From assembly GCA_017557405.1 (NCBI GenBank), contig JAFYYV010000020.1:1-43920 (forward strand): a stretch of DNA of 43,920 nt. Direction: 5' to 3'. Below are positions 9,586-23,792 of this stretch, in pieces. The stretch's first letter is position 1. Each line of letters starts with the position of its first letter. Under the pieces are notes generated by a model. The model did not search any database, was not told where the DNA came from, and saw nothing but the letters and a program-made list of their open reading frames with translations. Source of the DNA: Prevotella sp. (GTDB taxonomy: Bacteria > Bacteroidota > Bacteroidia > Bacteroidales > Bacteroidaceae). The position numbers and the translations under genes were made by a program.

Positions 9586-9717
9586 CTTAAAACCGCAAAT
9601 GACATTCCCATTTGTGGCTTTTGAGGCTGCCAAAGACCATCTTTGACCCGCTCAAAACTATGCAATAAGCCGGTCATTGCTAGTCTTTTGCGCAATCAAA
9701 ACGAAGTTAGCGGAAAG
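9586..9717. repeat. 22-base tandem array, locus B (6 units)
   Basis: Units start at 9586, 9608, 9630, 9652, 9674 and 9696. The second and third are the clearest (CCATTTGTGGCTTTTGAGG and CCAAAGACCATCTTTGACC). Later units drift in sequence but keep the TCA start in exact 22-base phase. The element at 9801-10028 follows after 83 bases. Confidence 0.75.
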
Positions 9718-9800: not shown

Positions 9801-10028
9801 GCTACATGCTACATGCTACATGCTACATTAAGGTACCTTAGCATGTGCAAAGCGCGCCCCTCTACCTATAGGTTATTATAATATATAATAAATTATATAT
9901 TATAATAAAATTATTTAATATTATACTCCATTAGTTTTCACAGCTCAAATCTGTCAATTTTCAACTCAAATCTCATCTCAGAAAAATGGAAACTACCTTA
10001 ATGTAGCATGTAGCATGTAGCTTGTAGC
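9801..10028 (+). repeat. Arm-repeat hairpin element, copy 1 (complete)
   Basis: The left arm is four GCTACAT units plus TAAGGTA (9801-9835); the right arm is TACCTTA plus three ATGTAGC and one TTGTAGC (9994-10028). The arms are reverse complements over 35 bases with one mismatch. Inside are the TAAGGTACCTTA palindrome, GTGCAAAGCGCGCCCC (9845-9860) and a perfect AT-only palindrome with 17-base arms (9873-9889 with 9892-9908). There is no coding capacity. Confidence 0.85.
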
Positions 10029-23294: not shown

Positions 23295-23448
23295 TCAGAG
23301 TTGCCTTTTGAGGCTGCCATTTGTGGTCTTTGACCGCGTCAGATGCATGCTCTGGGCTTGTCAGATGTGGCTTCTGAGGCTGTCAGATGTGGTCTTTTAG
23401 CCTGCTGGTGTTGCCCCCACCGACCGTCAAGGCCACTCTCCCCGACTA
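23295..23448. repeat. 22-base tandem array, locus C (7 units)
   Basis: Units start at 23295, 23317, 23339, 23361, 23383, 23405 and 23427. Five begin TCA and one CCA; two are close to TCAGATGTGGCTTCTGAGG. The sixth unit is degenerate but the seventh returns in phase (TCAAGGCC). It lies 36 bases upstream of the GH51 start codon. Confidence 0.8.
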
Positions 23449-23485: not shown

Positions 23486-23564
23486 AAACACCCCTCGATA
23501 ACTCGTAAAAATCTGTTAAGAAACGGGGCGCTCGGCGTTAATAAATGCAAAACGACCGAAAAGA

Positions 23565-23780
23565 TGACAAAGTGACAAAGTGACAAAGTGACATTAAGCA
23601 CCTTCCACATGTGCAGAGCGCGCCCCTCAACTATGGGTTATTATAATATATAATATTTATATTATAATAAAATTAGTAATATTACACTCTAGTAAATTTA
23701 CCCTATTGTTTTATTGCAATCTGTAACCACAGGAAATGCGAAACACCTTATTGTCACTTTGTCACTTTGTCACTATGTCA
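23565..23780 (+). repeat. Arm-repeat hairpin element, copy 2 (complete)
   Basis: The left arm is three TGACAAAG units plus TGACATTAAG (23565-23598); the right arm is CTTATTGTCA, two CTTTGTCA and CTATGTCA (23747-23780). The arms are reverse complements with two mismatches. Inside are GTGCAGAGCGCGCCCC and an AT-only palindrome TTATTATAATATA/TATATTATAATAA (23638-23650 with 23658-23670). The core aligns with the element at 9801-10028, but the arm repeat is entirely different. Confidence 0.85.
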
Positions 23781-23792
23781 CGATTTGCCTGG

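Follow-up and report, generated by a model that had tools for sequence, protein, structure and literature searches.

The element at 23564 to 23781 of the window, by which we mean the whole 43,920-nucleotide stretch of Prevotella sp. DNA analysed here, belongs to a family of repeats about 230-250 bp long which is best read, with moderate confidence, as a non-autonomous mobile element of foldback type, its ends self-matched and specific to the copy, in which the arms are rewritten from each other. On this reading the ends are terminal inverted repeats of about 34 bp, usually comprised of four like pentamers and TAAG, and the core usually carries an AT palindrome. The copies are dispersed and their arm boundaries are sharp; the two arms of a copy match, the pentamer from which they are built is particular to the copy, and it has changed in both arms together many times over.

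The first-pass annotation had placed the target copy at 23565 to 23780 and described it as sharing its core with the copy at 9801-10028, the arm repeat being wholly different and left-right complementarity retained. The observation as a whole is confirmed; the genome of the window (G000) contains at least 17 copies that have their two arms on a single contig, the target among them, and also 15 left halves and nine right halves at or near contig ends (all by hand count). Both window copies do carry a GTGCA(A/G)AGCGCGCCCC motif as well as the AT palindrome; their parts are as follows.

23564 to 23598, forward strand: left arm of the target copy; pentamers ATGAC and then GTGAC three times, 8 bp spacing (23564-23592), and TAAG (23595-23598)
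23599 to 23628, forward strand: left inner segment of the target copy (CACCTTCCACATGTGCAGAGCGCGCCCCTC), aligned with other copies
23638 to 23670, forward strand: AT palindrome of the target copy; predicted 13-bp stem, 23638-23650 with 23658-23670
23671 to 23746, forward strand: right inner segment of the target copy, up to GAAACAC
23747 to 23781, forward strand: right arm of the target copy; CTTA (23747-23750) and then GTCAC four times, the reverse complement of the left pentamer (23753-23781)
9801 to 9832, forward strand: left arm of the other window copy; GCTAC four times, then TAAG
9871 to 9910, forward strand: AT palindrome of the other window copy
9997 to 10028, forward strand: right arm of the other window copy; CTTA, then GTAGC four times

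The pentamers of the two copies do differ, but "wholly different" is too strong, as both arms have a common layout, in which NNNNC with a spacer of 2-3 nt is repeated four times ahead of TAAG, and GCTAC and GTGAC are only two positions apart. Complementarity is likewise retained but imperfect: when the left arm was aligned with the reverse-complemented right arm, 32 of 34 positions matched in the target copy (score 29, against a maximum of 10 in 300 shuffles) and 34 of 36 in 9801-10028 (31 against 14). The left and right arms of the target copy differ in their outermost units, in a single spacer and just before TAAG. The predicted RNA folds of the two copies have z scores of -11.1 and -8.3, respectively. 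The AT palindrome has 13 consensus pairs; for five of these, one or more of 20 sequences are changed at both partners. An open reading frame (ORF) with maltose-acetyltransferase domains has its stop 11 bp from the end of the right arm of the target copy and the start of an arabinofuranosidase ORF faces its left side. A nearby M3 peptidase has its best named relative in the plasmid collection in Prevotella nigrescens (67.7%), which suggests a Prevotella-like host. Tandem repeats with a degenerate unit of about 22 bp (GTGGTCTTTGAC...AAGCTATGCAATGAG type) occur at 23351-23392 and at about 9600-9700; they adjoin many copies in the window genome and apparently constitute a second dispersed repeat family.

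Across the family, a typical arm consists of four NNNNC pentamers with 2-3 base separators, hence spaced at 7-8 bp, and ends in TAAG; four units were counted on both sides in 29 of 56 copies, with single arms ranging from 0 to 5 units in a strict count. Copies with unit sizes other than 7-8 had been proposed as something to look for: this spacing is the usual one, single 9 bp spacings occur in some copies (L244, L258), and the arms of L256 are matched yet not built of repeats at all. Covariation analysis, also proposed in the first pass, was run at copy level over many copies, and it carries the covariation well beyond the original two. The arm pair scored above all 300 shuffles in 84 of the 85 copies with both arms readable, at a median identity of 0.97 in the aligned part, and the large number of unmatched arms that would have counted against the idea was not seen among the copies examined. 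The sole pair not above its shuffles was that of L272, those of L270, L269 and L273 being weak; L272 (G195:C9) has arms of two types and is possibly a recombinant or an assembly chimera.

As the right junction was chosen as the best match to the left arm, a choice which favours matching, an unanchored comparison free of it was made with 64 of 105 candidate rows, and here a copy's own score exceeded the mean of its other partners in 63 of the 64, the exception (L229) running off the contig end. The rows omitted were opposite-strand palindrome rows, a second match of L251, loci already used, contig-end half copies and, near contig starts, L140, L141, L242 and L254; the copies compared are a subset of the matches from the genus scan described below. 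With 58 non-redundant copies, from which near-duplicates had been removed although a few related copies remain, the mean left-right score was 24.1 for own arms and 8.0 for swapped arms, the former reached by 0 of 5000 permutations; the true partner ranked in the top tenth in 57 copies and was the very best in 27. The junction search did not pick up L249 and L273, and the analysis of mismatches excluded L264, L269, L270, L272 (dropped) and L289 (too short); the 85-copy shuffle test restored these copies, except L249 as well as L229.

The extent of the match was profiled in 59 copies chosen for matched arms. Outward from the junction, in 50 of the 59, arm identity was 0.76 at position 1, 0.80-1.00 at positions 2-23, 0.54-0.58 at 30-32, 0.32-0.42 at 33-36 and about 0.26 beyond; inward, in all 59, it was 0.98-1.00 over TAAG and 0.22 at the next inner base. 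CA-TAAG is the near-constant part across copies. The AT palindrome is not essential, since a compact copy lacking it (L366, G000:C23:1470) has irregular arms that still match at 33 of 36 aligned positions. In L249 (G016:C1:2106455), a copy not parsed by the junction search, the inverted repeat continues beyond the arms into unique sequence. Two further hairpins, X/X' and Y/Y', enclose the arrays in several G000 copies and seemed persuasive on inspection. In 57-58 copies, X/X' had a value reached by 258 of 5000 permutations, much like the controls (192 of 5000 for X' with Y, one of four), and Y/Y' had a value reached by 0 of 5000, but its four highest scores all came from one flank subfamily (L166, L167, L186, L258). 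For these reasons neither is counted as a general feature.

Pentamers were parsed by script, which misphased L176, L178 and L243, and the set of 56 copies excludes L176 and L256. It contains 18 left-arm majority pentamers: GTGAC (14 copies), ATTAC (7), GTTAC (6), GCAAC (6), GTAAC (5), GCTAC (3), GTCAC (3), GTCCC (2), and ten that occur once each. In 52 of the 56 copies both arms had the same majority pentamer, where the maximum in 10,000 shuffles was 15, and at least eight classes (GCTAC, GTTAC, GCAAC, GTGAC, ATAAC, GTAAC, GTCAC and GTCCC) occur within one genome. On a maximum-likelihood tree of 55 cores, from which L178 was also left out, a fewest-changes count requires at least 34 pentamer changes in the left arm and at least 34 in the right; 13 of the 52 inner branches of this tree are starred and 25 open, the bootstrap being not settled. 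In four starred sister pairs (L235/L241, L285/L286, L278/L282 and L277/L281) the words differ between the sisters and are matched on both sides. The pentamer has thus undergone repeated coordinated change in the two arms.

How such change comes about can be suggested from the architecture of the copies. The palindrome and the matched arms would let one strand fold back, and a polymerase switching template between the arms, at times slipped by one unit, could then overwrite either arm with a copy of its partner, and a variant would spread inside an arm by slippage or unequal exchange, with the result that the arms would evolve in concert while their sequence drifts. Template switching between inverted repeats is reported to homogenise their arms (PMC8604942, PMC8794818).

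The first-pass annotation had concluded instead that pairing of the arms matters, which the copies bear out only in part. The covariation is very strong, but functional pairing does not follow from covariation alone. If the element were transcribed or single-stranded at some step, the left-right stem might be functional and mutations in it compensated. We regard selection of this kind as a rather unlikely account of the family, despite the stable predicted stems of the window copies, the preference for four units, and L256, in which non-repetitive arms are nonetheless matched. Whole sets of units switch together between sister copies, which compensation one by one would hardly yield, and a search of four loci against Rfam gave one match far below the gathering score (20.9 of 110 bits, E 0.34) and no known structured RNA.

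The minor pentamers bear on this choice: of these, 15 are common to the two arms of their copy and 38 are confined to a single arm. At least one common register was found for 11 of the 15, as both copying and selection for pairing predict, so that these prove neither. The other four are shared only out of register, by one unit in L261, L235 and L255 and by one to two in L278; such sharing makes mispairs, which slipped copying explains and selection for pairing does not, in what is a small sample. Nor is there any wobble bias in the mismatches, counted over 30 positions in copies with at least 20 matches: those tolerated by G-U pairing number 32 on the plus strand (GA+TC) and 33 on the minus strand (AG+CT), and A/T swaps make up 111 of the 247.

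Copying of whole arms is not a sufficient description either, as the spacer bases of L192 and L283 consistently differ between left and right, which plain whole-arm copying does not predict. Non-uniform spacing patterns are mirrored between arms in only 7 of 22 cases (29 of 44 agree overall); since some irregular spacings are mirrored (L240, L244, L257), few as they are, a telomerase-like addition of one repeat to both ends is less likely. In three presumed orthologue pairs with shared flanks (L246/L290, L275/L287 and L284/L288) the arm mismatches are common to both members, thus suggesting that rewriting is rare rather than continuous. Inter-arm copying accounts for the data no less well than selection for pairing does; rewriting is, we conclude, episodic, and both forces may be at work.

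That the family moves is suggested by its ends, which were mapped in 142 homologous copy pairs (at least 200 bp, 74%). Homology ends peak 32-35 bp outside the junction on the left (32 of 142 pairs), with a second cluster within the arm, and 32-39 bp outside it on the right (62 of 142); both arm edges coincide with the ends of homology in 45 pairs, the other 97 extending beyond or stopping inside an arm. Copies thus commonly cease to be homologous just where the arms end on the outside, so that the arms act like terminal inverted repeats. One pair, L257 and L260, is 97% alike across 247 bp, ends at -32 and +39, and carries the same arms at unrelated sites. The signal for a target-site duplication is weak (mean shared word 4.47 against 4.19 permuted, a value reached in 26 of 2000 permutations), and on inspection runs of A or T are common in the flanks. 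In a search for an empty site with the flanks of the target copy, the matches listed held either gene alone and no place with both. The motif GTTTGCCCTCTCGTTT lies near several copies and is a putative element end only; a repeat of the TTTCCTGANNNNGTTGACA form adjoins several copies in several genomes (flanks of L213, L258 and L176).

The arms might instead derive from the target, the core inserting into, or replacing, the loop of inverted repeats already present, as reported for IS1272. Replacement of inverted repeats by transposition is in print (PMC5678879), it would account for matched arms specific to each copy, and the copy at the start of contig C13 of G000 (L196) is itself enclosed by another inverted repeat, of about 45 bp. 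Such an origin nevertheless seems very improbable: a single scaffold underlies nearly all parsed copies, the recently dispersed L257 and L260 have arms of identical type at unrelated sites, and sister cores differ by small pentamer changes. A half copy at the start of contig C38 (L203) has the same left flank as the C13 copy.

Neither a transposase nor an autonomous relative was found in searches with PF01797, the Y1 transposase family of IS200/REP, and with one junction pattern in the window's own genome. PF01797 had no matches in the element-rich genomes G285, G195, G071, G118 and G203, one partial match in G000 (24.9 bits, cut-off 23) and matches in the carriers G164, G016 and G165, being present in 10 of 24 genomes overall; an IS200/REP-type mobiliser was rejected, as this distribution does not track the element. 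An ordinary MITE (miniature inverted-repeat transposable element) with a sequence-specific transposase, its arm diversity reflecting many subfamilies each with a transposase of its own, is also improbable. Terminal inverted repeats, occurrence in multiple copies, mostly intergenic position, the lack of visible coding capacity in the element and the recurrence of some arm classes across several copies would all suit it, whereas eight or more pentamer classes in one genome, 34 or more arm changes on a tree of homologous cores, and the behaviour of PF01797, the one transposase family examined, do not. To move a foldback-type element with rewritten arms, a mobiliser would have to rely on the brief stretches that stay constant (CA-TAAG and what adjoins it on the inner side) or on the shape of the hairpin, and not on the whole arm sequence. 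We tentatively raise the possibility that mutual complementarity, a hairpin shape and not a sequence, is how the ends of this bacterial transposable element are recognised, and that its repeats are a freely drifting, self-copied word rewritten in both arms.

The distribution of the family was followed with a model of the inner core (R1; 140 positions, beginning at CA-TAAG and excluding the arms). At E <= 0.001 it was detected in 33 of 299 genomes of the genus, with 10 candidates scored and hence at most 10 matches in each; in an order-wide sample of 295 genomes at the stricter E <= 1e-5, the window's own genome matched and the other 294 gave none. Within the data scanned, with these differing thresholds and with strict filters, the family was seen in this genus only. 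Carriage by plasmids or phages was dropped as an idea, no place having 80% query coverage and no viral contig carrying the two exact patterns searched. A 16-mer alone was an unspecific marker (scans gave at least 117 stretches and 11), and only the G000 copies were left once an AT-rich downstream sequence was required. Allowing up to three mismatches, the AT palindrome pattern had 24 and 21 matches on the two strands of G000, many of which are paired halves of a single palindrome; the reversed control had 2 and 2 matches.

Copies are predicted to be mostly intergenic, apart from 15 of 75 overlapped by an unchecked ORF of 83-115 aa, ORF calling being crude. In the 32 of 75 copies with both neighbours readable, the gene arrangements were +- 9, ++ 9, -- 8 and -+ 6, and a main role as a bidirectional terminator was set aside, there being no excess of convergent pairs among them. 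A practical consequence concerns the assembly of G000, which the element appears to fragment, since 23 of 108 contig ends (hand count) fall inside it, mostly at the AT palindrome (C1, C3 (both), C4 (both), C10, C13, C14, C16, C19, C22, C25, C26, C28, C35, C38, C40, C41, C42, C48, C50, C52 and C53).

The family was compared with several known systems. It shares with MITEs a dispersed multicopy unit with defined ends (both arm edges in 45 of 142 pairs) and terminal inverted repeats (84 of 85 matched), but these are not conserved across the family (18 majority pentamers in 56 copies), and we therefore call it a variant rather than file it as a member of an ordinary MITE family. REP and REPIN elements, which are associated with RAYTs, are also short, intergenic inverted-repeat elements with hairpins; their arms, however, follow a genome-wide consensus, and the Y1 family that would be expected in carriers is absent from the five element-rich genomes above. 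FB of Drosophila and its relatives have terminal inverted repeats with internal tandem repeats, and in this family too, L256 excepted, the terminal inverted repeats consist of tandem subrepeats around a middle. Foldback elements (FB, Tetris, Galileo) are nonetheless eukaryotic and have much longer arms, and their subrepeats have a family sequence, whereas here the arms are about 34 bp and no subrepeat sequence is common to the copies, the word being copy-specific. Tetris is apparently non-autonomous, with repeats of about 220 bp (PMC4079207; further papers cited are PMC3573991 and PMC10969869).

The nearest bacterial precedent found in print is BrickBuilt of Porphyromonas gingivalis. BrickBuilt and MITE464/PgRS are also non-coding, intergenic elements of the Bacteroidales with tandem repeats and around 10-20 copies, but their repeats, of 23 or 41 bp, form a single internal array that is not mirrored at two ends, and the ends of BrickBuilt are of IS5 type (PMC4596501). 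In place of an internal 23-bp array with leader and tail, the present arrays are terminal and mirrored, with periods of 7-8 bp. Quasipalindrome correction by template switching likewise renders the arms of inverted repeats identical, yet the accounts cited concern single inverted repeats and not a dispersed family built on a tandem word (PMC8604942, PMC8794818). Among the matches listed in open-access literature on Prevotella and Bacteroides repeats, MITEs and foldback elements, no title or opening lines of an abstract described such an element.

Normally, the transposase that recognises the terminal repeats of a mobile element keeps them constant. A copy-specific word matched at both ends is out of the ordinary among mobile elements and points to the copying of one arm from the other. 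The matched ends also serve as a caution that copy-level covariation alone is no proof of a functional RNA stem. As the arms vary within one genome yet match in each copy, the family is a natural record of the rewriting of inverted-repeat arms, in which the question of template switching versus compensatory selection is testable with sister copies.
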